A stretch of 54,144 nt of DNA from an uncultured Alcanivoracaceae bacterium (GTDB lineage: Bacteria > Pseudomonadota > Gammaproteobacteria > Xanthomonadales > Marinicellaceae): NCBI GenBank assembly GCA_913061105.1, contig CAJXVJ010000002.1, forward strand, positions 1 to 54,144, in the 5' to 3' direction. Below the pieces are notes generated by a model that saw nothing but the letters and a program-made list of their open reading frames with translations, did not search any database and was not told where the DNA came from. Position 1 is the stretch's first letter. Each line of letters opens with the position of its first letter. Shown one piece after another: positions 11,403 through 54,144 of this stretch. A program made the position numbers and the translations under genes.

Positions 11403-14400
11403 CTATCGAAATCTACTATTTGCAATAGGCTTATCTGTTCCTAATGCGCCTTGTGGAAATATTTCAAGAGGCACAGCATAACCAAATTGACTCTGAAAGA
11501 TAATAAAGCGGTTTCCATGGCCATCAGAATTTGAACGCCAATAACCTATGTCATCTTTGCCATCTCCATCATAATCACCAGTGACAAAAACATCACTGTC
11601 ATCCATATTAATCAACGCATCAATAGTAGGTGAACCGCCATCCCAATCTTCCGCATGTAAAATTGTGGCGTTATTGAACGGATCAATGAGTGAACTTAAT
11701 CCTGCATTACCATTGTCAAAAAATACACCAGGAACTTGTAAACGGGCTGTACTGGTGCTTTCATGCCTTATTGAGCCAAGAATACCAATAAACCCTGTAT
11801 AAACAGTCTCTTGAAATTGACCGTTGACATTCAAATCTGTCACAAGCAAGAAATCTGCAAATCCGTCACCATCATGATCAAAACCTCCTGCTGGTTGAAA
11901 ATCACTGGTTATGCCCACTTTGGTATTAAATTGCACCACTGGGGTATTTGAATTATAATTCAAAATTATAAAACGAGCGACTTCTGCCGAGTCTTTATTG
12001 CTTACAAAAAACGCCAATTCATCCATTCCGTCGCCATTATAATCCCCAAATTGTGGATCAATACTTAAATCAGTATTAGAACTCTCTTCAAAAAATAGCG
12101 GTACATCATTGGGTCGGCTTGATCTTCTAATCAAATACTTAATTGAATTTGCATTATCGACGTCTAATTCAATCGCAATATCATCGATACCATCGCCGTC
12201 AAAATCACCACCACTGGATGGTTTTGCTGTGCTACCAAAAGTTGGCATATTGACAATGGTTTCTTCTCCCTGGACCGTGGCATCATTTTCTTTAATCAAG
12301 TGGGTTAGATAGGATGCTCCACCAATTTCCGTGGGATAGGTTAACACATAGTCACTTAATCCTGTCCCAGTAAAATCAAATTGAGCTTTCTTGCAATTTC
12401 CTTTCATATATGATGCTTGAAACGCTAAAGGTTGGGCACTTTTCAACTCAAAATCAGAATTGAATATCACATCATTCGATAATTCTGGTCCTTGCCTGAC
12501 AATCAATTCAACTTTTTCAATGACACCTGTATCTCCTGCCAAGTGGTCACTGACTGATAGCGTCCATATTCCATTGGCTTGTTCTGGTGTTAATCCTGCA
12601 AAAGCCCCATTTAATAATGTATTACAACCTCCATTGCGGCTGTAATCGTTGCCACGGGTGCTGGTTCTATAACCACCAGATGGTAATGTTGATCCGATAG
12701 CTTGCAATGATCCTTGCCACCAATCTAATTCACTGTGGTCATTAAATAAATAAGTTCCAAACAGTATTGAATTGCCTCCAGGTGGATTAACACTGTTCAC
12801 TCCTGTTCTGGCAAATATTACCAGCTTAGCTAAACCATCAGGCGATTTTAATACCATATCCACATCTCCAATCCATGTGTGACTCATGGTGATTGAGATA
12901 TCCAAATCTTCAATATTACCAGATATCAGTTGTTCCATATCTAATGGAATTTCAATTCCAACAGGGTTGTTATCAGGAATGGGTAATGAGACTGGAAAAG
13001 ATTTGGTGATTAAATTGACATCATTAAAAACATAAGCTGCCCCTGATTCTGGTTTGTTGTTATTATCAACAATTCCATCTAGATTTGTCACCCCTGTCAA
13101 ATCACTGTCTTCATGGTGGGCACCAACAGCAATATAATCACCAGATACTCCCACACCAATAGAAAATTCATCTCCGGCTTCGGCTTCGGCTGCCTTCAAA
13201 TAACCTTGTTCACTCCAAGTAGAACCATTTTTATGAAAAACAAAGGCCGCTCCGGAATCTATTTCATCATTATCAAACCTAATAGCACTACTGTCTTCAC
13301 CAACTGCAGCGATAACTGCTATATTTCCAGAAATCGCTACACTACTACCAAAATCATCTCGTATATCTGTCTCGGAGGCTTTGACATAAGCTTGTTGAAA
13401 CCAGAATGAATTGCCACCAGTAGAATTGCGTTTAAAGATATAAGCAGCCCCTGAATCTGTTAGGCCGTTATTATTTTGATCACCATTAATTACTGTCGCA
13501 TTACTGTCTTCACCAATGGCACCAACAACAATGGTGTCTCCTGAAATTGCCACATCAAATCCAAATAAATCGGTGGCTTCGGTATTTGATGCTTTGATAA
13601 AGTGAGTTTGTGGCCAATTACCACCCGTTTTAGTAAAAACATAAGCGGCTCCAGAACTTATGGCATTGTCGTTAAATCCATCACCGCTATTTACACCAAC
13701 AAAATCTGAGCTTTCACCATACGCACCCACAACAATGGTGTCTCCTGAAATGGCTACTGAGTATCCAAATCTATCATCTTCGCCAAAATTTATCGCTTTT
13801 AATTGGGTATCATAGACCCAATTAGAACCACTTTTTTTATAAATATGAGCGGCGCCCGAAGAGTTCAATTGATTAGCCTGATGCGGAACGCCGACTACAA
13901 CTGTATCTCCTGAAACAGCCACATCATGACCAAATTCTCCTCCTGGTGTTTCAAATAAATTTTTTAAATAAGCTTCTTGTATCCAATTGCCGTTTAATCG
14001 AATAAAAACATAGGCCGCACCAGAATCTGGACTGCCATCGTTTCCACTGCCTGAATTAACCGTAGTGGAATCACTGTCTTCATAGGGCGCACCCACAACA
14101 ATAGTATTTCCTGAAATACTTACCGAAGCTCCAAAACCATCAAACAACCCTTCGTTGGAGGCTTTCAGGATAGCTTGTTGACTCCATCCATTATTGTCTC
14201 GCACAAAAACATAAGCCGCTCCACCATCTGATTGATTAGGAGCCCCAACTACCATCGTATCACCAGATATTGCCACGTCTCTTCCGAACTGATCATTTGC
14301 AGTTACGGCATCTGCTTTGATGTAAGCATGTTGTACATAACTGGAGTCAACAACATTGCCTGATTTTGAATAATCATCAATTTGATTTTCGATGGATCCC

Positions 14401-14510
14401 CAATCTTTAGACGATAGCCCAAATGGACCTTTTTCTATTGTTGGTTCAATGGCATATGTGCTTGTACATGTCAGTACTAAAATTAAAAACATTCTGAACT
14501 GGTTATTCAT
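11403..14510 (-). CDS. Secreted FG-GAP propeller, P-domain and VCBS-like repeat protein
   Basis: 1035 aa. A signal peptide (residues 1-20, ending STYA) is followed by seven FG-GAP units with a repeated pattern (D-x-F-G-x-x-V-A-I-S-G-D-T-x-V-V-G-A), enough for one seven-bladed beta-propeller. A proprotein-convertase P domain (about residues 500-670) follows, recognised from ITMSHTWIGDVDMVLKSPDG, SGGYRTSTRGNDYSRNG and NGIWTLSVSDHLAGDTG. Next comes DVIFNSDFE (680-688), then VCBS-like Ca-binding repeats (DFDGDGIDD, DYNGDGMDE, DHDGDGFAD, DYDGDGKDD) to the end. No protease catalytic domain is present, so a surface or adhesive role is likely. It lies 108 bases downstream of an ECF sigma gene on the same strand. 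Confidence 0.88.
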   Translation of the reverse strand: MNNQFRMFLILVLTCTSTYAIEPTIEKGPFGLSSKDWGSIENQIDDYSKSGNVVDSSYVQHAYIKADAVTANDQFGRDVAISGDTMVVGAPNQSDGGAAYVFVRDNNGWSQQAILKASNEGLFDGFGASVSISGNTIVVGAPYEDSDSTTVNSGSGNDGSPDSGAAYVFIRLNGNWIQEAYLKNLFETPGGEFGHDVAVSGDTVVVGVPHQANQLNSSGAAHIYKKSGSNWVYDTQLKAINFGEDDRFGYSVAISGDTIVVGAYGESSDFVGVNSGDGFNDNAISSGAAYVFTKTGGNWPQTHFIKASNTEATDLFGFDVAISGDTIVVGAIGEDSNATVINGDQNNNGLTDSGAAYIFKRNSTGGNSFWFQQAYVKASETDIRDDFGSSVAISGNIAVIAAVGEDSSAIRFDNDEIDSGAAFVFHKNGSTWSEQGYLKAAEAEAGDEFSIGVGVSGDYIAVGAHHEDSDLTGVTNLDGIVDNNNKPESGAAYVFNDVNLITKSFPVSLPIPDNNPVGIEIPLDMEQLISGNIEDLDISITMSHTWIGDVDMVLKSPDGLAKLVIFARTGVNSVNPPGGNSILFGTYLFNDHSELDWWQGSLQAIGSTLPSGGYRTSTRGNDYSRNGGCNTLLNGAFAGLTPEQANGIWTLSVSDHLAGDTGVIEKVELIVRQGPELSNDVIFNSDFELKSAQPLAFQASYMKGNCKKAQFDFTGTGLSDYVLTYPTEIGGASYLTHLIKENDATVQGEETIVNMPTFGSTAKPSSGGDFDGDGIDDIAIELDVDNANSIKYLIRRSSRPNDVPLFFEESSNTDLSIDPQFGDYNGDGMDELAFFVSNKDSAEVARFIILNYNSNTPVVQFNTKVGITSDFQPAGGFDHDGDGFADFLLVTDLNVNGQFQETVYTGFIGILGSIRHESTSTARLQVPGVFFDNGNAGLSSLIDPFNNATILHAEDWDGGSPTIDALINMDDSDVFVTGDYDGDGKDDIGYWRSNSDGHGNRFIIFQSQFGYAVPLEIFPQGALGTDKPIANSRFR

Positions 14511-14618: not shown

Positions 14619-15173
14619 TTAATTCAATTCTTTGAATAACCACAACCGAGAAACAGACCAGTCACGTTGAACTGTTTTACTTGAAACAGATAAAATTTCT
14701 GCGATTTCTTCATTATTTAGCCCGCCAAAAAACCGCAAAGTCACAATTTCTGCTTGTCTTGGGTTGAGTGCCTCAAGTTTTATTAAGGCTTGTTCAAGTC
14801 CATCTAAATCTATTGCTTGTTTAAAGCCTGATTGTATGTCTTCCTTAAGGGTTAATAATGTTTGATTGTTACCGCGTTTATCGGCATTGTCTTTTCTAAA
14901 TTTATCCACCAAAACTCGCCGCATGGTTCGAGCGGCCATTGAAAAAAAGTGGGTGCGGTTTTTCCAATCAACGGAATTGGCATCTATCAATCTAAGATAA
15001 GCCTCAGATACCAGTTCAGTACACTGTATGCTGTTTTTTTTATTTCTGTTAAGTTGCGCTGTAGCCAGTTCTCGAAGTTGTTGATAAACCTCTTCAATGA
15101 GTTGATCCAATGCCGCTTGATCGCCTTCTTGCCAGCGATTTAATAAAACCGTGACTTGAACTTTAGTTTTCAT
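14619..15173 (-). CDS. ECF-type sigma factor (Sigma70_ECF, kinase-associated type)
   Basis: 184 aa with region 2 (about residues 20-95, including VDWKNRTHFFSMAARTMRRVLVD) and region 4 with a helix-turn-helix (LNPRQAEIVTLRFFGGLNNEEIAEIL, then VSSKTVQRDW). It resembles the ECF group found beside Ser/Thr kinases. The region-2.2 segment that is normally acidic (DAED-like) reads QCTELVSEAYLRL, with Thr52. It overlaps the kinase stop by 11 bases, so the two are translated together. No anti-sigma gene is present. Likely control is by the adjacent kinase (inference). Confidence 0.9.
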   Translation of the reverse strand: MKTKVQVTVLLNRWQEGDQAALDQLIEEVYQQLRELATAQLNRNKKNSIQCTELVSEAYLRLIDANSVDWKNRTHFFSMAARTMRRVLVDKFRKDNADKRGNNQTLLTLKEDIQSGFKQAIDLDGLEQALIKLEALNPRQAEIVTLRFFGGLNNEEIAEILSVSSKTVQRDWSVSRLWLFKELN

Positions 15174-17502
15174 CGTTTTGTTTTAGATTGTTTTTTTGAG
15201 CTTCTTCAAATCCTCTGAGTATGGCATAGTAGCGATTTTTATCTTGTAAATCAATGTTCTTACTTTGTAAGAAATCAGCGGCTTCTCGTGCTTTCTCAAG
15301 TTTTCCAAGGTACATACTGGCTATGAGTAAATGTTGGATATACAACACATCTTTGCTGTATTGTGTAATCGGAAGAATAATATCATAGGCTTCTTGGAAC
15401 ACCACTTTGCTTTTTTCAAATTCATCATTTGACCAAAACAAATAGGCTTTGGTAAATAATGCTCGTACCAAATTGTTCTGAGTACTGATGTTTGATGCAT
15501 CCCACTTAAGCAAACTCCTTTGTTGCTCAATGGCTTTGTTGCCCATTGATAAAGATTTATCATAATCACCAAGCACACGATAAATATCAGCCAGTAATCC
15601 CAAAACATTGGCATAATTAATTTTCGCCTCATAGTCATTTGGGTTTTCAACCAGTAATTCTTGATCGTACTGTTTTGATAACAAACAAGTATCAAGTGTT
15701 TCTGCATTAATGCCATTGACAAATTTCAAACCACATATTTCAAATTGAATACTGGCCAAAACTTCTAATAATTCAGGCACTTCATCGATGATGCTGATGG
15801 TTTTTTGATGCGCCATATCCAGTAATTGCTCAGCTTTTTCAAATTCTCTTTTCTCAAGGTAACTGTTGGCAGTTAAATAGATCGACTTAAGATACAGCGA
15901 CCAACGTTTTTCTTCATTGACTTGGTTCATGTTCAATGGAGTATCATTTTGTTGATTGACCAATTTTTCACCCAAATGCATAGTGGATGTGGTCACTTTA
16001 ATTGACTCATCAAAATCTCCCATATATCGATACAAATCGCCCAAAGCAATCTGAGTGATGCCCAATCTGTAATTTAACAAGGGGTTGTTCGGGTCTTTTT
16101 GTTGTATTTCTTTTAGCGATTCATAAGCTTGTTCAAGCAATTTTATGCTTTGTTTTTCCTCACCTTTGTCTTTTAAAACTTGTGCCACATAAACCATTGC
16201 TATTACAGATTGACCTTGCGAGTCTTGAATGAGTTCTGGTGATAGGTTGTTATAATATGACAGAGCTTGATTCGCCACTGATTCCAATAACTCAATCTTC
16301 CCCAATTCTTGCAATCCTGAATGTAAGTCATCCAGCATAAAACTGATTAATTTTTCCGCATCAGACCTGGCTGCCAGAGCATGGTTGCGCTCTAATTGCA
16401 GGTCTGTTGTATATTTCCAAGCAGCCAATAAAATTAAAAGGGTAATGGTCATAGCCATGGCCCACAATACATGGCGTTTTGTTCGGCTTTGTAATTGTTT
16501 AATCCTTTCTTGTACAGCACGTGCTGTAGGCCTTTTATTGGCATCGGCTGATAACAATTGTTTTAATAGGTTTGTTTCTGTTCTCGGTAAATTTTTGGGA
16601 ACTTCAAACTGAGCTTGTTTAGACTTTTCCATTAACTCAACATTGGATGCGATTTTTGAAAATGGCATCTGATTGGTTAACAACTCACTTAATATTAATC
16701 CAAAACTCCATAAATCTGTGGCCGTGTTAGACTTTTCGCCTCTGGCTTGCTCTGGAGACATGTATCCTGGTGTGCCAGAAACTTGGGTTAATTTTGGATC
16801 AGCTTTAGTATTGGGTTGTGCCCCTTCAATACCTGAACGGGCAAGACCAAAATCTAAAATTTTAACCGTGCCATCATCTGTCATCATGATATTATCAGGC
16901 TTTAAGTCTCTATGAACAATGCCACGTTCATGAGCAACAGTCAAGGCAGAAATAATTTGATGTGCTACTTCAATGGGGTTGTTTAAATTATCATCATCAA
17001 GAATTTGTCTCAGAGTTTTTCCTTGTATTAATTCTAAGACCAATACATCTTTCTGATCATCAACAAAAAAATCATAGACTTGACAGATGTTAGGGTGATG
17101 CAAACTGGATAAAACTTGTGCTTCGTTTAAAAATTCAGCACGGCGTGTCTCTGACATTTGCAATTGACTGTTCATGACCTTAATCGCGACTTTACGTTTA
17201 AGTACCTGATCAACACCTGCATAAACTTGGCCCATTCCACCACGAGCAATCAATCCATCAATTTTAATGCGGCCAATTTTGCCCTTTATGACTTCTTCTT
17301 TATCTTCATGCTGAGGAAATTCAATAGGGGTTTGATCTAGAAAAGAATCTTCAACATCCAAATTGAGTAATTCTTGAACATCTGCTCGCAATGACACATC
17401 ATCAGCACACAACTGATTTAACAAATCTCCTGCCTGGTCTTTTGGAGCTTCTAGAACCTCAGCAACAATGTCACTGACTAATTTATAACGTTCAGGATTC
17501 AC
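15163..17502 (-). CDS. Membrane Ser/Thr protein kinase with TPR-like C-terminal domain
   Basis: 779 aa. The kinase domain spans about residues 78-340: glycine loop ARGGMGQVY (86-94), Lys108, Glu127, HRDLKPDN (197-204), DFG (217-219) and GTPGYMSPE (243-251), so all catalytic elements are intact. A membrane span at 344-363 is followed by an about 400-residue helical, TPR-like region, presumably periplasmic or sensory. Residues 1-70 are a short helical N-terminal extension. The start is GTG. It lies 78 bases after the LPS operon and overlaps the sigma gene by 11 bases. Kinase-first order is the reverse of the pair at 51092. Confidence 0.92.
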   Translation of the reverse strand: MNPERYKLVSDIVAEVLEAPKDQAGDLLNQLCADDVSLRADVQELLNLDVEDSFLDQTPIEFPQHEDKEEVIKGKIGRIKIDGLIARGGMGQVYAGVDQVLKRKVAIKVMNSQLQMSETRRAEFLNEAQVLSSLHHPNICQVYDFFVDDQKDVLVLELIQGKTLRQILDDDNLNNPIEVAHQIISALTVAHERGIVHRDLKPDNIMMTDDGTVKILDFGLARSGIEGAQPNTKADPKLTQVSGTPGYMSPEQARGEKSNTATDLWSFGLILSELLTNQMPFSKIASNVELMEKSKQAQFEVPKNLPRTETNLLKQLLSADANKRPTARAVQERIKQLQSRTKRHVLWAMAMTITLLILLAAWKYTTDLQLERNHALAARSDAEKLISFMLDDLHSGLQELGKIELLESVANQALSYYNNLSPELIQDSQGQSVIAMVYVAQVLKDKGEEKQSIKLLEQAYESLKEIQQKDPNNPLLNYRLGITQIALGDLYRYMGDFDESIKVTTSTMHLGEKLVNQQNDTPLNMNQVNEEKRWSLYLKSIYLTANSYLEKREFEKAEQLLDMAHQKTISIIDEVPELLEVLASIQFEICGLKFVNGINAETLDTCLLSKQYDQELLVENPNDYEAKINYANVLGLLADIYRVLGDYDKSLSMGNKAIEQQRSLLKWDASNISTQNNLVRALFTKAYLFWSNDEFEKSKVVFQEAYDIILPITQYSKDVLYIQHLLIASMYLGKLEKAREAADFLQSKNIDLQDKNRYYAILRGFEEAQKNNLKQNDEN

Positions 17503-41072: not shown

Positions 41073-44000
41073 GTGAGAAACAATAACCATTTCAACAATT
41101 CCATCATAAAAATTTCAATATCTTTGATAATTTCATTGTTAATAAGCCCAATAGTTATGGCACAAACATGGCAACCCATTGGACCTGGTCCACTGCATGG
41201 TGGCCAAAATGAAGGCATGACAAATAGTCCAGTTATTGGTGCCATTCACGGGATTGCCCCTCATCCAACAAACCCTGATATTATTTATGTTGCCGCTGTT
41301 AATGGTGGCGTTTGGAAAACCAGCAATGCCACAGCATCAAGCCCTACGTGGACACCACAAACCGATGATAAATCGTCTATGTCAATGGGTGATGTTGAGT
41401 TTGATCTACTTGACCCTACTTTTCAAACTTTGGTAGCAGGTTCTGGTCGATTTAGTAGCTTAATAAGCACAGGTGGAGACCGAGCTGGAGTATTTAGAAC
41501 AACTGACGGTGGCGCTACTTGGACAGATCTTAATGGTGGAATGGATGATCGCAATATTACCAGTGTTGAAGCCAGAGGTGCAACATTATTAGCTGCAGTA
41601 ACTTCTGCAGACAATAATACATGTAGTAACATCGGTATTTTTCGATCAACGAATACTGGAACAAGCTGGACTCAGTTAACAACCACTCAAGGAATACCAA
41701 GAGGAGCGGCCTCATCTCTAGTAGCAGATCCTCTAGACAACAATACGTTTTTTGCTGGTGTCAGTACTTTTAATGGTGTATGTTCTGCGTTGGCATCAGG
41801 CATTTATAAAACAATTGATGCTGGAGTAAGCTGGACTAAAGTCAGCAATGCAGCAATGGAGACTGTCATTGGCACCAGTAGTTGCCATTTCGAAATTGCT
41901 GTGGGTAAAAATGTTGGCACTAATGTTGGTGAAACAGGCAATGTATTTGTCTCCATGGTTTGTGGTGGTGGCAATCTTAGCGCTGTATTTCGTTCAGGTA
42001 ATGCCGGCAGTACATGGACAGCAATGGATATTCCAGAAACAACTGAAACCAGCGGAACAGTAGGACTACATCCAGGTGGACAAGGTACTTTACACTCTTC
42101 AATAGCCGCTGACCCAACGAATGATAACATTGTCTATGTAGGTGGTGACAGACAACCTGATGGTTTACCAGGGGCACAATTTCCAAATTCAATTGGTGCC
42201 AATACCTATTCTGGCCGTTTATTTCGTGGAGATTTCTCTCAAGCCTCTGGCTCACAATGGACACCATTAACCCATAACGGAACTGCCAGCAACTCATCTC
42301 CACATGCGGACTCTCGTGATTTGCAATTTGATGCCAATGGCAATCTACTAGAAGGTGATGATGGTGGGATATTTAGACGTTCAACTCCTCTGTCTACCTC
42401 TGGAGACTGGTTTAGTGTTAATGGTGATTTACAAGTCACCGAACAACATGATACTGTTTATGATGCCAATTCTGAAATAGTCCTCAGTGGTAATCAGGAC
42501 AATGGTACCAGTAGACAAAACTTATTTGCCAGTACTACTTGGAACAATGTACGTGGTGGTGATGGCGGTGATGTTGTTGTCGATGTGCTGTCATTAGCCG
42601 GCTCCAATCGTTCTGTTAGATATGACAGTTTTCAAAATCTACAAGCCTTTAGACGTTTAACTTATGATCAAAACAATGGCTTTATCAGCCAAAGTTCTGT
42701 TGCACTGAACGTTATCAATGGAGGCAGTTCATTGTCAGCCCAATTTGTTACTCCTTTAGCGATTAACAACACCAATGGCAATCGGTTAATTATTGGAGGT
42801 GGCAATTCTGTTTATGAATCTGCCGATCAAGGTGATAATATCTCTGAGATAGGCGCTGGAATAGTTGTAGCTGGTTTTGGCCGTAACAATATCGCTTATG
42901 GTGCATCTGATAATGCTGACATCTTATATGTTGGTGCATGTCAGGGCAGCTGCTTCAGTGGGTCAAACGATGGTGTGTTTGTGCGAACAACTGCAGCGGG
43001 TGCTTTAACACTTTCTCAAGCGCCAAGCTCAGGTGTTATTCAGGGAGTCACCGTTAATCCCGGAGATTCAACCGAGGCCTTTTTTATTGAGTCTGCCAAA
43101 GTATTTCATACCACTAATTCAGGCACGAATTGGACTGAAATCACAGGAAATCTCACTAACTTTGGCGAATTACGTTCAGTCGCCTTTATGCCCGATGCCA
43201 GCAACAGCCAGTTGGTTGTAGGCACAAATCGAGGCGTATTTAAAGCCGAACAAGCAGATGCATTTAATATGTGGTCAATAATAGCACCAGGTATGCCAAA
43301 TACACCAGTGTTTGAATTACAATACGATGCAGCCAGCGATCGCTTAATTGCAGGCACCATGGGGCGTGGATCGTTTGTACTCACCTCTATGATGGGCAGT
43401 AACTCGCCTCCGGTCATTGGAGCAGAAACCATTAGTGTGACCAAAGGTGGCACAGCAACTACAGTAGATGGTGGTGCCACTTCATTAATTGTCAATGATA
43501 CTGATCCTGATGCTGGTGATACATTAACCATGTCAACCACTGCTGTAACAGAACCCATGAATGGCTTGTTATCATTAAGTGCCAATGGAACATTTAGTTA
43601 TCAACACGATGATTCATTTACTGATACAGACCAATTTTTCTACCGAGTTTGTGATGACGGTACACCGGAAATGTGTGCTGATGGGCAAGTTGATATTACT
43701 GTTGATTTAGGTGGAGCAGTGTGTAGTGCACCCAATCTGAATATACCAGACGATGAACCGGTTACAGGAGTTTCAGACACATTGGCCGTAGCAACAAGTG
43801 GCAACTTAACAGATCTAAATGTATTTCTTGAAATTAACCATACATGGGTAGGTGATGTTACAGTCAGCCTGACTCATGTGAGTTCAGGTACTGAAGTTGT
43901 ATTATTAGAAAGACCGGGAAATCCAGCTTCAACTAATGGTTGTTCTGCAAATGATATATCTACTACTCTGGATGATGACTCCGCTACTCCAGCAGAAGAT

Positions 44001-45080
44001 CAATGTGCTACGCCAATAGCCATCACTGGTATATTGTCACCAACTGAAGCATTATCAGGGTTTAATGGACAAGAATTATCAGGAAATTGGACCTTGAAGG
44101 TAACTGATTCTGTTGGAGGCGATGATGGTGCTCTTATTTCATGGTGCTTAAGCCCAACAATAGGAGCTGGCCCTATGCCTCCAGTGCTAGCCAGTATTGG
44201 TAATAAAGATGTTAATGAGTTGGTCAACTTGGCTTTCACAGCCACAGCAACTGATGATGATACGGCGCAAAACGATTTGGTCTTTAGTCTATCTGGGGAA
44301 CCTACAGGTGCGAGTATTACCAGTGGTGGAGCATTCAGTTTCACACCAACTGAAGCCCAGGGTCCAGGAACTTATACATTTGACGTTGTTGTCAGTGATG
44401 ATACATTGCCTACCGCATTAACTGACAGTGAAGAGATCACTGTGACCGTTGCAGAGGTTAATCAAAATCCTGTACTTGGTGTTATTGGCAATCAGAATGT
44501 TGATGAATTATCATTATTAACATTCAATGCCAGCGCAACAGATGCTGATTTACCAGCACAATCATTAACTTATACCTTATCAGGTGAACCTTCTGGTGCG
44601 AGTATCACCAGTGGTGGAGTATTCAGTTTTACGCCAACTGAAGCCCAAGGTCCAGGTGATTATACGTTTGATGTGATTGTTACTGACAATGGCAATGGAA
44701 GCTTAGCCGATAGTGAAGAGATTACTGTCACAGTTGCTGAATTAAATGTGCCGCCAAGTCTTAATGGTATTGGTAACCAAATTGTCGAAGTATTAGAAAC
44801 CTTGAGTTTTACAGTCAGTGCGACAGATACAGATTTGCCAGCACAAAACTTGACCTTTTCTTTATTAGGTGAACCAGCAGGTGCTAGTATTACTAGTGGT
44901 GGTGATTTCAGTTTTACGCCAACTTTTGATCAAGGACCAGGAATGTATACCTTTGATGTGATTGTAAATGACAATTTTGTAATAACAAATGAAGCTTTGT
45001 CCGACAGTGAAACCATCACTGTTGAAGTAACCAACGGTGATCTTATATTTAAAAATGCTTTTGAAGCTCCGCCACCGTGA
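41073..45080 (+). CDS. Large secreted Asp-box propeller protein with P domain and Ig-type repeats
   Basis: 1335 aa. Signal peptide to about residue 30 (ending VMAQ). Residues 35-770 hold many Asp-box (BNR)-like strands (TDGGATWTD, NTGTSWTQL, DAGVSWTKV, NSGTNWTEI), a sialidase/VPS10-like propeller. A cadherin-like Ig module follows (about 785-880), then a P domain (about 885-1030, NHTWVGDVTVSLTH, NWTLKVTDSVGGDDG), then three near-identical putative-Ig repeats (about 1035-1320). The chain ends DLIFKNAFEAPPP, carrying the motif discussed in findings. GTG start with AAGAGGAG. Likely a cell-surface or secreted adhesin or hydrolase-like protein; no catalytic residues are assigned. Confidence 0.88.
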   Translation: MRNNNHFNNSIIKISISLIISLLISPIVMAQTWQPIGPGPLHGGQNEGMTNSPVIGAIHGIAPHPTNPDIIYVAAVNGGVWKTSNATASSPTWTPQTDDKSSMSMGDVEFDLLDPTFQTLVAGSGRFSSLISTGGDRAGVFRTTDGGATWTDLNGGMDDRNITSVEARGATLLAAVTSADNNTCSNIGIFRSTNTGTSWTQLTTTQGIPRGAASSLVADPLDNNTFFAGVSTFNGVCSALASGIYKTIDAGVSWTKVSNAAMETVIGTSSCHFEIAVGKNVGTNVGETGNVFVSMVCGGGNLSAVFRSGNAGSTWTAMDIPETTETSGTVGLHPGGQGTLHSSIAADPTNDNIVYVGGDRQPDGLPGAQFPNSIGANTYSGRLFRGDFSQASGSQWTPLTHNGTASNSSPHADSRDLQFDANGNLLEGDDGGIFRRSTPLSTSGDWFSVNGDLQVTEQHDTVYDANSEIVLSGNQDNGTSRQNLFASTTWNNVRGGDGGDVVVDVLSLAGSNRSVRYDSFQNLQAFRRLTYDQNNGFISQSSVALNVINGGSSLSAQFVTPLAINNTNGNRLIIGGGNSVYESADQGDNISEIGAGIVVAGFGRNNIAYGASDNADILYVGACQGSCFSGSNDGVFVRTTAAGALTLSQAPSSGVIQGVTVNPGDSTEAFFIESAKVFHTTNSGTNWTEITGNLTNFGELRSVAFMPDASNSQLVVGTNRGVFKAEQADAFNMWSIIAPGMPNTPVFELQYDAASDRLIAGTMGRGSFVLTSMMGSNSPPVIGAETISVTKGGTATTVDGGATSLIVNDTDPDAGDTLTMSTTAVTEPMNGLLSLSANGTFSYQHDDSFTDTDQFFYRVCDDGTPEMCADGQVDITVDLGGAVCSAPNLNIPDDEPVTGVSDTLAVATSGNLTDLNVFLEINHTWVGDVTVSLTHVSSGTEVVLLERPGNPASTNGCSANDISTTLDDDSATPAEDQCATPIAITGILSPTEALSGFNGQELSGNWTLKVTDSVGGDDGALISWCLSPTIGAGPMPPVLASIGNKDVNELVNLAFTATATDDDTAQNDLVFSLSGEPTGASITSGGAFSFTPTEAQGPGTYTFDVVVSDDTLPTALTDSEEITVTVAEVNQNPVLGVIGNQNVDELSLLTFNASATDADLPAQSLTYTLSGEPSGASITSGGVFSFTPTEAQGPGDYTFDVIVTDNGNGSLADSEEITVTVAELNVPPSLNGIGNQIVEVLETLSFTVSATDTDLPAQNLTFSLLGEPAGASITSGGDFSFTPTFDQGPGMYTFDVIVNDNFVITNEALSDSETITVEVTNGDLIFKNAFEAPPP
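44160..45040 (+). repeat. Three DNA-level tandem repeats within the 1335-aa gene
   Basis: Three units at about 288 and 285 bases spacing (landmarks 44307, 44595, 44880) encode the Ig-type repeats, each with GASITSGG-x-FSFTPT. The first two share long identical nucleotide runs, so they probably arose by recent duplication or gene conversion. Confidence 0.85.
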
Positions 45081-47575: not shown

Positions 47576-49234
47576 TCACCCTTCAAAATCATCTTTAAAT
47601 ATGACATCAGGGTTTTCAAACTCATAGACTTTAACAGCACCAGAATCATTTTCATCATCGACAGAGTCATTGCCTGGCATGCCAACAACCAATTCAGGCC
47701 CATTACCAAAATTACCCACAGTCATAGAATAAGTCATTTCATCAAGGTCATCACCTATAAAATTTGTGACGTAGTCGTTATCATCTATCGTTATACCACC
47801 TACCGATCCATAGAGAACATGAAAAGCGCCTGACGAATCATTTTCACGAGGAACACCAACCACTAGATCAGCTATCGAATCATAGTTCAAATCAGCGCTG
47901 GTTAATGTGTCGCCAAACCTGTCTGAATTTTCAGCAACAGCACCACCACTCATCCCATCAGTGTTTTGGGTAAATATTTGATTGCCATTTGTTGTTAAAC
48001 CCGTGTCACTTCCATAGATTATATGAACGGCTCCAGCATCGTTTATGCCATCTGCATTTAAACTCTCTCGTTCTGCTGAAACTGCTAAATCCATTGATAA
48101 ATCGCCATTGAATCTTCCTGTGGTTAAGGCAGAACCAAAATTATCATTGGCTTCAACCACTCCATTTATCGCTCCTGATTGAGACCAAATGAAACTGGTA
48201 TCCGTTGCATCCAGTCCTGAAAGTCCACCATTAAACACCTGAACTGCTCCTGCACCATTCTGGCCATCAACGTCCTGACCAGGAATACCTACAGCCAAAT
48301 CCCATACTGGTCCTGGCAATACACCTGAACGAAACATACCTGCAGCTAAGCTTAATCCGAATTGATCATTATCTTCAGAAGCTGAACCTGGTATGTCATC
48401 TGACTGTTGACTCAAAGAATCTCTATCATCTGCTGACAAACCATCGGTATGGCCATAATACACTTCGACTTGCCCACCATCAGATATTTGATCCATATTG
48501 CCAAAATCTTCAAATGGTGCAGAAACAGCCAAATCATCACAGGTGTTACCATTATCTGAGTCGCCATTGAAATTTCCCACAGTCATACTCCAACCAAATC
48601 TATCACCAGCACTCAACCCACCTTCAAAAGAAATATTGGCAGGGGAACCTTGATGGATAAAAGTCGAACCTGCTCCAAGGTCAGCAAAACCTGAATTTGA
48701 CCCATAAAATATATTAATTGCACCAACAGCATTTCTTAATCCTCCGCTGCCATTAAATGTCACATCTTCCTCTGGCGTTCCTACCGCTAAATCAGAAATT
48801 CCATCACAATTGAAATCTCCACTGGCCAATGTTTGACCAAAAAAATCATTCGCTTCTAAGCCTTCGTTGTTTTCAAAATTTGGCGGGTCTGTTTCTAAAG
48901 ATTGAAACAACAACTGTGAATCTACTGGGGTTAATCCATTGGGTGATCCATATATTATTTGAACCGCCCCTGTGTTCAGTACAGTTGCAAAGAAAAAGTC
49001 ATAATTGGGAATACCTATAGCCAAATCATCCCAACCATCGTTATTAAAATCTCCATGTGCCACTGCTTCACCGTAACGATCTATGGGATCAGTATCATCA
49101 GAAAATCCAGACACATCAAAGTCCCAAATTTCTACATCTGTAATGGCGTTGAACAGATTGACTAGATTTCCGACATCTGATTTAACCACTGTTGTGAACG
49201 TTCCCATTAATAGTATTATTAGTAAATTTTTCAT
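47576..49234 (-). CDS. Secreted seven-repeat FG-GAP protein
   Basis: 552 aa from ATG 49234, chosen because AGGAG lies just before it and a signal peptide (ending VVKS) follows; the frame extends 15 codons further up. Seven FG-GAP units are visible, with D-x-F-G-x-x-x-A-x-G-D-F-N-x-D-x-x-x-D-L-A-V-G-x-P patterns, a complete integrin-alpha-like propeller. It has no P domain and ends DVIFKDDFEG, the motif shared with two other secreted proteins here. Likely calcium-dependent surface or secreted role. Confidence 0.87.
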   Translation of the reverse strand: MKNLLIILLMGTFTTVVKSDVGNLVNLFNAITDVEIWDFDVSGFSDDTDPIDRYGEAVAHGDFNNDGWDDLAIGIPNYDFFFATVLNTGAVQIIYGSPNGLTPVDSQLLFQSLETDPPNFENNEGLEANDFFGQTLASGDFNCDGISDLAVGTPEEDVTFNGSGGLRNAVGAINIFYGSNSGFADLGAGSTFIHQGSPANISFEGGLSAGDRFGWSMTVGNFNGDSDNGNTCDDLAVSAPFEDFGNMDQISDGGQVEVYYGHTDGLSADDRDSLSQQSDDIPGSASEDNDQFGLSLAAGMFRSGVLPGPVWDLAVGIPGQDVDGQNGAGAVQVFNGGLSGLDATDTSFIWSQSGAINGVVEANDNFGSALTTGRFNGDLSMDLAVSAERESLNADGINDAGAVHIIYGSDTGLTTNGNQIFTQNTDGMSGGAVAENSDRFGDTLTSADLNYDSIADLVVGVPRENDSSGAFHVLYGSVGGITIDDNDYVTNFIGDDLDEMTYSMTVGNFGNGPELVVGMPGNDSVDDENDSGAVKVYEFENPDVIFKDDFEG

Positions 49235-49556
49235 ATTTTTCTCCTGTTTAAAAATTATTTTCCAATTGAGATAAGCCATAGATGTGCTATCTCTTACTAA
49301 TAATTCGTTGGCATTTGATTTCTATTCCAAAATTTATGTGTTTTATGCAAATGAATAATAAAAATCACAACTGCGTCACGTTTTTATGCATATTTGGAGA
49401 ATGAATTGAATGTAAAAACTCTTTTTAAGTTGTGATAGAGCGAATTAATTCACCCAATCCTGGCAAGTTATTGACAGGAATGATTATTAAAAAAGTTAAG
49501 ACCCGAACAAGTCTTTAGATAAATGTTTGTAGTTGTCGCATGAGGGTACTGCTAAG
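49235..49556. other. 322-base gap between the FG-GAP and DUF1329 genes
   Basis: It holds the DUF1329 terminator and, nearer the FG-GAP gene, AT-rich sequence with a small dyad GAGATA/TATCTC (14-base gap) upstream of the ATG. No gene or RNA recognised. Confidence 0.5.
49489..49515 (-). terminator. Terminator after the DUF1329 gene
   Basis: On the minus strand AAGACTT pairs with GGGTCTT (five Watson-Crick and two G-U pairs) around a GTTC loop, followed by AAC and six T. It lies about 40 bases past the stop. Confidence 0.6.
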
Positions 49557-51091: not shown

Positions 51092-51658
51092 ATGAATACC
51101 ATCAATGACATCACTGAATTTTTAAATAGCGAAACAGACATCAATCAAGTTAAATTGGACAAGCTGTTTGAAATGTTATATCCAGAAGTAAAAAAGATAG
51201 CCAATATGCAGTTATCAAAAATCCTAAAAACATCTGAAGTCACTCCCACTCTATTGGTAAACGAATGTTATCTGAAGCTGAATAATTCATCTAATGTGAA
51301 CTTACAGAATAGAAAGCATTTCTTTTGCTTGGTTTCTCGCTGCATGCGTTTTCACTTGATAGACCTGATTCGCAAACAATACAAAAATAATAATCAAGTT
51401 AACAACACACAATTTAGTATTACCCAAATTTCTGCCGATGACTCTACAGGTATTGATTTACTAGAACTCAATCATGCCCTAGAAAGACTAGAAACAATGG
51501 ACAAAGAGTTATTGAAGATTGTTGAGTTGCGGTTTTTTGGAGGGTTTTCACTTGATGAAATTTCTGAATTGCTAGAAACCAATAAAGCAAAAGTATACCG
51601 ACAATGGCTGCTGGCCAAATCAATCTTGGTTAATCTAATTGATGAAGAAAATGAATGA
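51092..51658 (+). CDS. ECF-type sigma factor, second pair
   Basis: 188 aa, same type as the factor at 14619: region 2 (FEMLYPEVKKIANMQL, then NRKHFFCLVSRCMRFHLIDLIRKQ) and region 4 (MDKELLKIVELRFFGGFSLDEISELL, then NKAKVYRQW). The region-2.2 segment reads TPTLLVNECYLKL with Thr51 and Thr53 and no DAED-like acidic run. It overlaps the kinase gene by 8 bases. The upstream 242 bases show no clear promoter. Confidence 0.9.
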   Translation: MNTINDITEFLNSETDINQVKLDKLFEMLYPEVKKIANMQLSKILKTSEVTPTLLVNECYLKLNNSSNVNLQNRKHFFCLVSRCMRFHLIDLIRKQYKNNNQVNNTQFSITQISADDSTGIDLLELNHALERLETMDKELLKIVELRFFGGFSLDEISELLETNKAKVYRQWLLAKSILVNLIDEENE

Positions 51659-54100
51659 TAACAGAACAAACCACGATTGGAAAAAAGCCATTGAGATTTG
51701 CAAAGACTTAGATCAACTGAGTCATGAAGAAGCCCTTGCAAAAATAAACGAATTAAATCTAAGTGACAGCATAACAGCCAAAGCCAATAGCATCATGTCG
51801 CGCCTAAATGAAGAACATGAAGTATTTGACAATAATCCATCCAAAATACTAAACAAAGCACAAACCAATGATTTCAACAATCTTATTGGCAATACCATAG
51901 ACTCTTATAAAATAATCGCATTGATAGCAAAAGGAGGCATGTCATCGGTCTTCAAAGCAGAAAAAGTTTTATTGGGTGTTCACAAACCAGTGGCTTTAAA
52001 AATACTTTCACCCTATGTGTTTTCAGATAAATCTGTAGAATTGTTTAATCGTGAACAGCTTATATTGTCTCAATTAGAGCACCCCAATATTGTCTCTTTT
52101 CATCACAGCGGTCGAACTGAAGATGGAACCCGTTATTTAGTGATGGAATACATTGATGAAGCACAGACCATAACTGACTATAGCCAAAACCATCAATTAT
52201 CAACCAATGCAATCATTGAACTGGTCTATAAATTGGCCAAAGTTTTTATCTATGCACACAATAACCTCATCATACACAGAGACATAAAACCGACCAACAT
52301 CCTTGTAGACAATCAGGGCACACTAAAAGTGATCGATTTTGGCATTGGTCAAATCATTTCAAAACACGACAAAACATCTACCCAAGTCTATACTAAAAAT
52401 TCAGCATCGCCAGAACAAATTTTGGGCCAAAACGTGAGCATACAAACCGATGTATTTTCATTAGGGGCTGTGATGTTGGAGTTGTTGGTCAATAAAAACC
52501 CATTACCAGAAACAAATATCACCAATTATAACCCCCAAAACGATGTTAAACACATTAACAAATTACTTAAAGACTCATCTTTGGATTCTGATTTAAAAAA
52601 CATCATTCGTACCGCCATGCACATAGATACAGCAAAACGTTATGCCAGCATGGACTCTTTTTCACAGGACTTAAATAATTGGATGAATAAAAGACCTGTC
52701 AATGCCTCATCTGACACTAAGATTTATAAAATTAAGAAATTCGTGATTCGAAACCCGCTGACCTTTGCACTCAGCCTGATTATTTTTGTTTCGATGTTAA
52801 CAGGGATAGTTGTCGTAAATAATTACGCATCTAAAGCCCAAAAAGAAGCCGAGAAGGCCAAAACCACTTTAAGTTTAATTACCCAAGTTTTCAATCCAAC
52901 TGACTCATGGAATCCTCCAGAACCAAATAAATCATTGCAACAAGCCTTAGACGAATTTAGTGAAAATAAACTGCCTTCATTAGACCTTGATAAAGACATA
53001 AGAACAAACCTACACAAAACCTTAGGAGAGATATACATTAACTACGGTTTATATAAAAAATCTCATACCCAGTTTCAGGCAGCTTTATCGTTATTTACGC
53101 CAAGTGAATTAAACAACTCAGAATCTGCGTTATACATTCAGTATCTTTTAGGTACCAATCAAAGAATTTTAGGCCAGAACACAGATGCATCTACATTATT
53201 AAGGAAAACACATGATAGTTTAGTAGCTAAATTCCCTAACAATTATAACCTTAGACTTGAAATTTTAACCAGTCTAATGGATAGCTATTACGGCGTGTCA
53301 AACTATCAATCAGATGCTGCACATAATGTTGAAAAAGAAATTCTGGAAACCATAGCATCAGGAAAAGTAGACGATAAACTTGAAATCTCAAGTGCTTATG
53401 ATGCATTGGCAGTTAAGGCGCAATTTCAACAACCGAAAGATTTCAAATTAGCAAAACAGTACTTAAACAAAGCTTTGAATATTGTCAACATTCCACAATA
53501 TACTCAAACATTTGAATATTATAATCTACAACGGACACTGGCTCACATAGAAATAAGGCAAGACAATTATCAACTTGGCGGAGATATTTTATTAAAATTA
53601 ATTAATAAAATTAAGAATACCAATCCCGATAACACACTTTTAAATCGATTATATGAGGATTATTCAACTGTTTTATTCAAAATGGGGAAATATAAACAAT
53701 CGATTAATGCCCTAACACAAGCAATAGAAATTTCTAATCTAGCAAATAGTGAATCGTGGTTATATTTTCCATTATCAAAAAGAGCCATGTACCACATTCG
53801 CTTAAATGACTTTAAGTCTGGACTAGTAGATCAAATGAATTTAATTCCAATTGCTGCAAAATATAAAACCAACAACCTTGCAGATAGCTTTAATAATTTA
53901 TCTTTGATCATGCATTCGTTAGGGCATACAGACATTGGAAAACAATTGACTAAACTGGCCATAGCAAACCTTGACCAGGATGGTCCATACTATATAGGCT
54001 TTATTGAGTATTATTATTTAGCCTCTGGCATAAATAATTGGTTTGCTAAAGATACAGTAGCGGCGAAATCTGACCATGCTAATTCAATAGAATACATAGG
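51651..54100 (+). CDS. Membrane Ser/Thr kinase with TPR-like tail, 3' end missing at contig edge
   Basis: At least 816 residues; no stop before the adapter. Kinase domain about residues 85-345: glycine loop AKGGMSSVF (93-101), Lys117, HRDIKPTN (209-216), DFG (229-231) and SPEQ (253-256) in place of APE. The segment between DFG and SPE lacks the usual GTPxYM and reads KTSTQVYTKNSA. A membrane span (about 370-389) precedes a long helical, repeat-rich tail. The start ATG 51651 overlaps the sigma stop. Sigma-first order is opposite to the pair at 14619-17502. Confidence 0.9.
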
Positions 54101-54144
54101 CTGTCTCTTATACACATCTCCGAGCCCACGAGACAGGCAGAAAT
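54101..54144. other. Nextera (Tn5) sequencing adapter at right contig end
   Basis: The reverse complement of positions 5-48: mosaic end at 54101-54119, read-2 tail to 54134, then the N703 index AGGCAGAA (54135-54142). Not genomic. Any protein read through it (the kinase tail) is artefactual after residue 816. Confidence 0.97.

Follow-up and report, generated by a model that had tools for sequence, protein, structure and literature searches.

A second sigma factor–kinase pair with a region 2.2 threonine in a Marinicellaceae contig: a likely ECF43-type phospho-switch

The window analysed here (the whole stretch of 54,144 nucleotides) is contig C2 in the genome assembly of a Marinicellaceae bacterium, which comprises 3.59 Mb in 371 contigs. 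It carries two pairs of an ECF sigma factor and a Hanks-type Ser/Thr kinase, called pair A and pair B. The motif of the sigma factor and its linkage to a kinase gene make it likely that pair B is an ECF43-type phospho-switch. There is nothing unusual about pair B within this recently described signalling mode, in which a receptor kinase directly controls a sigma factor; the mechanism has been published, with examples from Vibrio and Xanthomonas. In both pairs, the sigma factor belongs to the same family and bears a threonine at a conserved column of region 2.2, the kinase has intact catalytic residues, and the partners have diversified together.

Pair B and the threonine of region 2.2

Sigma B (51092–51658, plus strand) is a 188-residue ECF sigma factor of the TIGR02999 (Sig-70_X6)/PF07638 type. 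It scores 99.7 bits against PF07638 (cut-off 21.1) and barely clears the TIGR02999 cut-off (127.8 versus 126.15 bits). The segment TPTLLVNECYLKL holds Thr51 and Thr53. In the alignment, the codons of Thr51-Pro52-Thr53 (51242–51250, plus strand) lie at the start of region 2.2, with Thr53 as the candidate phosphosite, and a candidate second site, Ser109-Ile-Thr111 (51416–51424, plus strand), was located in the σ2–σ4 linker through alignment column 234. Kinase B follows on the same strand (51639–54100). It is a Hanks-type Ser/Thr kinase with a membrane helix and TPRs, whose 3′ end is missing at the contig end. Pfam detected PF00069 (150.6 bits) and TPR repeats, and a hydropathy scan placed one transmembrane helix behind the kinase domain, at residues 369–387. 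Three starts can be chosen, TTG 51639, ATG 51642 or ATG 51651, giving an overlap with the sigma B gene of 20, 17 or 8 bp respectively. Counted from TTG 51639, 86 residues precede the kinase domain (residues 87–334; 51897–52640, plus strand), in which the catalytic Lys, Asp, Asn and Asp are intact.

The contig stops before any gene downstream of pair B. Positions 54101–54119 are an exact match to what we take to be the Nextera mosaic-end adapter (0 matches expected in shuffled sequences), and the region 54101–54144 is adapter read-through, an artefact without strand assignment. Since the adapter starts at 54101, the last genomic position is 54100; kinase B is cut short, and the final 14 residues of its translation are artefactual. 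Untrimmed adapter was seen at both window ends (30–48 and 54101–54119) and at the ends of many other contigs of this genome, where genes bear false terminal residues such as CLLYTSPSPRD.

Pair A is encoded on the minus strand. Sigma A (14619–15173) is a 184-residue ECF sigma factor with the motif QCTE (Thr52 codon, 15018–15020); it scores 163.6 bits with PF07638 (cut-off 21.1) and 207.7 bits with TIGR02999 (cut-off 126.15). Kinase A (15163–17502) is again a Hanks-type Ser/Thr kinase with a membrane helix and TPRs (PF00069 190.6 bits, TPR repeats); 74 residues precede its kinase domain and the hydropathy scan found one transmembrane helix (residues 344–362). Kinase A lies upstream and overlaps sigma A by 11 bp (15163–15173). 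The statement of an earlier note on this DNA that each sigma gene overlaps its kinase gene in opposite order was hence borne out: kinase then sigma in pair A (11 bp), sigma then kinase in pair B (8–20 bp).

The same note had placed Thr51 and Thr53 in sigma B and aligned Thr53 with Thr52 of sigma A, and our alignment agrees. According to excerpts of two reports, ECF43 sigma factors have QTTA-like motifs in place of the DAED-type acids of region 2.2, and the third residue is phosphorylated; the phosphothreonine is T51 in EcfK, whose motif is QATE, and the second Thr of the STTA motif in EcfP (PMC13147305, PMC8999054). As the motif is QCTE in sigma A (one Glu kept) and TPTL in sigma B (no acid), Thr52 and Thr53 occupy this position. 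At the positions of the Thr and the residue after it, SigW (5wuq) has Glu-Asp, and a canonical ECF sigma factor of the genome studied here has Asp-Asp.

A Thr at this column is found in 100 of 114 related sigma factors from 17 genomes. This conservation is far from chance and close to the 88% reported for ECF43 in the excerpts of PMC13147305. In the clade of sigma B, all 44 members have the Thr and none has an acid at +1; in the clade of sigma A, the following residue is Glu in 5/6 and Leu in 1/6. The earlier note had called the Thr of sigma B independent. Given its frequency in the family, the shared Thr is most simply an inherited family state, and no independent gain would be needed.

Thr51 stands at the first motif position, which is Thr or Ser in 43/44 B-clade sigma factors. 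When sigma B is modelled with AlphaFold2 (mean pLDDT 78), a helix spanning residues 52–65 begins right after Thr51, so that this residue is most simply a helix N-cap, and probably not a switch residue. A Foldseek search of the PDB with this model, used as a fold check only, placed ECF sigma factors on top and SigW first, with an E-value of only 0.003 and a TM-score of about 0.37.

In the excerpts describing PknS–EcfK of Xanthomonas citri, an ECF43 system, PknS consists of an 83-residue extension, the kinase, a transmembrane helix and periplasmic TPRs (PMC13147305). Kinases A and B have the same layout, with 74 and 86 residues in front, a kinase domain, one transmembrane helix and TPR matches, and by analogy their TPR side may be periplasmic. 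Among PDB structures, PknS (9EED) matched kinase A with E = 5.3e-27 and kinase B with E = 1.1e-23, behind StkP, PknA, PknB and others; that both kinases have several closer matches than PknS weighs against the ECF43-type reading. In X. citri as here, a transmembrane receptor kinase with N-terminal extension and TPRs stands beside an ECF sigma factor bearing a Thr at the same place of region 2.2. EcfK shares Thr-Glu with sigma A (QATE versus QCTE), which like EcfK keeps one Glu, but differs from sigma B, whose TPTL motif is free of DAED acids. Another ECF43 system, PknT–EcfP of Vibrio parahaemolyticus, resembles pair B in its acid-free motif with the phospho-Thr in third place (STTA versus TPTL) and in its adjacent kinase. 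The excerpts assign EcfP to a polymyxin response and give it one phosphosite, whereas sigma B additionally has Ser/Thr at the conserved linker column. Groups ECF59, 61, 62, 217 and 283 also have a Ser/Thr kinase beside the sigma factor; in the excerpts of PMC8999054 they are said to keep a DAED-like motif, unlike sigma A and sigma B, which lack the full set of acids. As both sigma factors have an adjacent Hanks-type kinase and a Thr as third motif residue, these features appear best explained by an ECF43-type assignment, one based on motif and kinase linkage. A literature search on Marinicella combined with sigma factor returned nothing relevant.

Two other sigma–kinase pairs of this genome (L057, 1328–4470 on C52; L059, 4797–7950 on C61) keep their acids (ETDD) and belong to another ECF type. 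The genome thus holds two classes of kinase-linked sigma factor, the acid-keeping ETDD class and the TIGR02999 type.

In the proposed switch, kinase B would sit in the inner membrane as a receptor, its kinase domain facing the cytoplasm and its TPR repeats outside. Sigma B lacks the DAED-type acids by which ECF sigma factors grip the β′ subunit of RNA polymerase; upon a signal, kinase B would phosphorylate Thr53 at the start of region 2.2, and the phosphothreonine would supply the charge that allows sigma B to bind the polymerase and its targets to be transcribed. Thr51 would cap the helix, the linker residues Ser109/Thr111 may form a second site comparable to T106 of EcfK, and pair A would be a separate EcfK-like circuit in which Thr is followed by Glu.

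Linker column 234 is Ser, Thr, Asp or Glu in 74% of the 114 sigma factors. Sigma B has Thr111 there, with Ser109 two residues before; sigma A has Lys, with Thr108 two residues before. The linker is the lowest-confidence part of the AlphaFold2 model of sigma B. Column 234 may be the counterpart of EcfK T106. In the excerpts on X. citri, EcfK is also phosphorylated in the σ2–σ4 linker, T51 or T106 suffices and the T51A variant still works (PMC13147305). That T51A works via T106 counts against a Thr53 switch in pair B. It is conceivable, though improbable, that Ser109/Thr111 would be the main switch of sigma B and that Thr53 would be kept for polymerase contact or helix structure. Such a role of the linker would fit the Ser/Thr found at column 234 in 37/44 B-clade sigma factors, the linker Thr-Thr-Leu retained by another clade nearly devoid of the region 2.2 Thr, and the need of EcfK for only one of its two sites (PMC13147305, excerpts). 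However, the Thr53 position is invariant in the B clade (44/44) and the linker column is not, and the sole phosphosite found in EcfP of V. parahaemolyticus, according to the same excerpts, is this very Thr.

Separate lineages, gene arrangement and kinase linkage

The earlier note had read the two pairs as parallel circuits instead of one duplicated operon and had proposed phylogenies of both partners as a check. The trees uphold this reading: no recent tandem duplication was seen, and A and B fall into separate clades in the sigma tree and into the matching clades in the kinase tree. The trees are "quick" trees supported by SH-aLRT values alone, and flags were raised for several long branches. 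In the sigma tree, the clade of sigma A has 6 members (support 98) and that of sigma B has 44 (support 99). The kinase tree, built from 96 full-domain partners, mirrors these sigma clades (A 5/5, B 41/41, and 6/6 for the Thr-poor clade described below). Across the 96 pairs, sigma and kinase distances correlate with r = 0.81, and 999 reshuffles of partners within genomes averaged 0.05 and reached 0.154 at most; nearest-neighbour agreement of the partners was weaker (only 56/96).

A recent tandem or operon duplication with rearranged copies could be invoked from the identical domain content of the two pairs, which lie 36 kb apart. We rejected it on identities and trees and consider it extremely unlikely: the sigma factors share about 34% and the kinase domains 29% identity, the sigma factors and likewise the kinases belong to different clades, and the closest relatives of each are in other genomes (72% for sigma A, in G007; 51% for sigma B, in G023). 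The spacing of the pairs, within about 40 kb, is not special either. When ten positions were drawn at random on a 3.585-Mb line (20,000 trials), neighbours within 35.9 kb occurred in 61% of trials, so that proximity means little, and we rejected it as a signal.

With the TIGR02999 profile, ten sigma factors of at least 89 bits were found in this genome. The window accounts for two, and eight score over the cut-off. Nine are full-length: seven are adjacent to a kinase, another sits on a short contig that shows no kinase, and the last is at a contig edge. Such sigma factors are present in 94 of 121 genomes sampled across the order (E 1e-25 or better), many of which carry 10 to at least 25 of the TIGR02999 type. 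With about ten such sigma factors here and at least 25 matches in several genomes of the order, a single cell would run many parallel sigma–kinase circuits, which makes partner specificity testable.

The catalogue used for all family counts comprises 114 sigma factors of this genome and of 16 relatives, a selection from the profile hits and not all of them; a sigma factor cut by a contig end (L023, 3758–4216), a hit on L180 and four other ECF sigma factors of at most 40 bits were left out. Some relatives are near-identical or identical (112 different rows of 114), and counts are therefore counts of sequences and not of events. Two unusual clusters were noticed among these loci. On contig C280 (L023, 1–4216), a sigma–kinase pair is accompanied, about 1.3 kb away, by a second TIGR02999-like sigma factor, which the end of the contig truncates. 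A four-gene cluster, shared by two closely related genomes, has two TIGR02999-type sigma factors back to back with a kinase on each far side (L200, 2279–3579; L125, 4053–5354).

The sigma gene is followed by the kinase in 67 of the 114 cases and preceded by it in 23, and 6 pairs are divergent and 6 convergent; 8 sigma factors have no kinase within 600 bp and 4 are at contig edges. The genes overlap in 55 of the 90 same-strand pairs. Clade A is kinase-first in 6/6, and clade B contains 39 sigma-first pairs, 4 tail-to-tail pairs and 1 sigma factor without a kinase. With four arrangements in the family, gene order alone does not indicate parallelism, contrary to what the earlier note had suggested. 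As 102 of 114 sigma factors are linked to a kinase through all four arrangements, order and strand have changed and linkage has mostly stayed. The opposite order seen in the window reflects two old lineages.

An initial count of 25 sigma factors with no kinase (20 with more than 600 bp on both sides, 5 at edges) was discarded, being partly an artefact of a rule that asked for the same strand and a distance within 400 bp; 12 of them have a divergent or convergent kinase and one has a kinase 578 bp away. The catalytic Lys, HRD Asp, Asn and DFG Asp are present in all 96 partner domains longer than 200 residues, the kinases of the window included.

A simple link between Thr and kinase was also rejected: 11 of the 102 kinase-linked sigma factors are without Thr and 6 of the 8 kinase-free ones have it. 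The latter count speaks against a phospho-switch. Nine of the 11 Thr-less sigma factors adjoin their kinase on the same strand, and the Thr is thus not required for pairing. One could suppose that the adjacent kinase acts on another protein and that sigma B is controlled by expression only, the Asp/Glu contacts being possibly replaced by other residues; intact kinases beside Thr-less sigma factors point in this direction. We regard it as very unlikely, since linkage has persisted through the four arrangements, the partners have co-diversified and, in the excerpts of PMC13147305 and PMC8999054, direct phosphorylation is reported for two relatives.

A clade that has all but lost the threonine

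Nine of the 114 sigma factors form one clade (support 100) with Asn, Gln or Ala in place of the Thr and Asp/Glu at +1 in 9/9. Six have an intact kinase on the same strand, two have no kinase and one is at a contig edge. The genome of the window has its own member, L025 (7897–8457, contig C155), with SPNE in place of the Thr motif; the genomic sequence ends 26 bp behind this sigma gene, so that a downstream kinase cannot be seen.

Six further members were added from other genomes, including M. pacifica and M. gelatinilytica. The scan used two patterns, one of which required Asn, Gln or Ala in the position of the Thr, and retained 80 of 124 loci. Fourteen of these had at least 50% identity: seven (L222, L223, L225–L229) appear to come from genomes already catalogued and were not recounted, L251 is cut and without region 2.2, and six (L224, L230–L234) joined the clade after a check by tree. 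The 66 weaker loci were excluded from the clade counts. All 15 members of the enlarged clade lie on one side of a branch with support 99. Of the added sigma factors, L224 still has the Thr, two have Ala and three have His, and the Thr is lost overall in 14/15 (Asn, Gln, Ala or His). All 15 have Asp/Glu at +1 and Thr-Thr-Leu in the linker, and the Ser/Thr after Thr-Thr-Leu becomes Gly in three. The M. litoralis member (L210/L225) reads SAND and adjoins an intact kinase. A kinase stands beside 10/15, with catalytic residues confirmed by alignment in six and catalytic motifs by pattern in four; for four members no kinase was found in the stretch read.

These features raise the tentative suggestion that the phosphosite has been relocated in this clade, the polymerase-binding charge being built in and the kinase acting via the linker alone. 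Such a relocated switch, possible on the evidence of this one clade, would put the two-site model of EcfK to a test set up by nature, and the nearly Thr-less clade as a whole offers a natural comparison of which phosphosite matters. Linker Thr and Leu are common outside the clade too, and their conservation may be partly structural. Each of the other five Thr-less sigma factors adjoins a kinase and lacks an acid at +1, which means that a built-in acid is no general rule.

Genes next to the pairs

Downstream of sigma A lies a gene for an FG-GAP-repeat protein (11403–14510, minus strand; PF14312, 240.7 bits), a candidate target gene that may be driven by pair A. An FG-GAP gene follows the sigma gene on the same strand in four of the six clade-A loci; in the other two, the genes that follow are on the opposite strand, and in each case the one scanned had no match to FG-GAP. 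ECF43 sigma genes are expected to have no anti-sigma gene beside them; the three neighbours examined with Pfam around the window pairs, a set that includes neither the gene preceding kinase A nor anything 3′ of pair B, proved to be FG-GAP and DUF1329 proteins. EcfK controls a T6SS according to the excerpts on X. citri, whereas no T6SS part is present among these three neighbours.

A crude signal-peptide rule called 15 of 26 genes downstream of pairs, against 144 of 563 in the background, and was not relied on; it does not pick out the FG-GAP protein encoded after sigma A, although by eye the start of this protein resembles a signal. The motif [IVL]Fxx[GADS]FE, possibly an unnamed sorting or anchoring tail, is not named as such by NCBIfam in the four proteins scanned. 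Among 667 complete ORFs of at least 150 residues from the window and related loci, 45 have it no more than 20 residues from the C-terminal end and 50 have it anywhere, against 2 anywhere in one shuffled set. In the window, it is found in the ORFs at 11403–14510 (where it is internal), 41073–45080 and 47576–49279.
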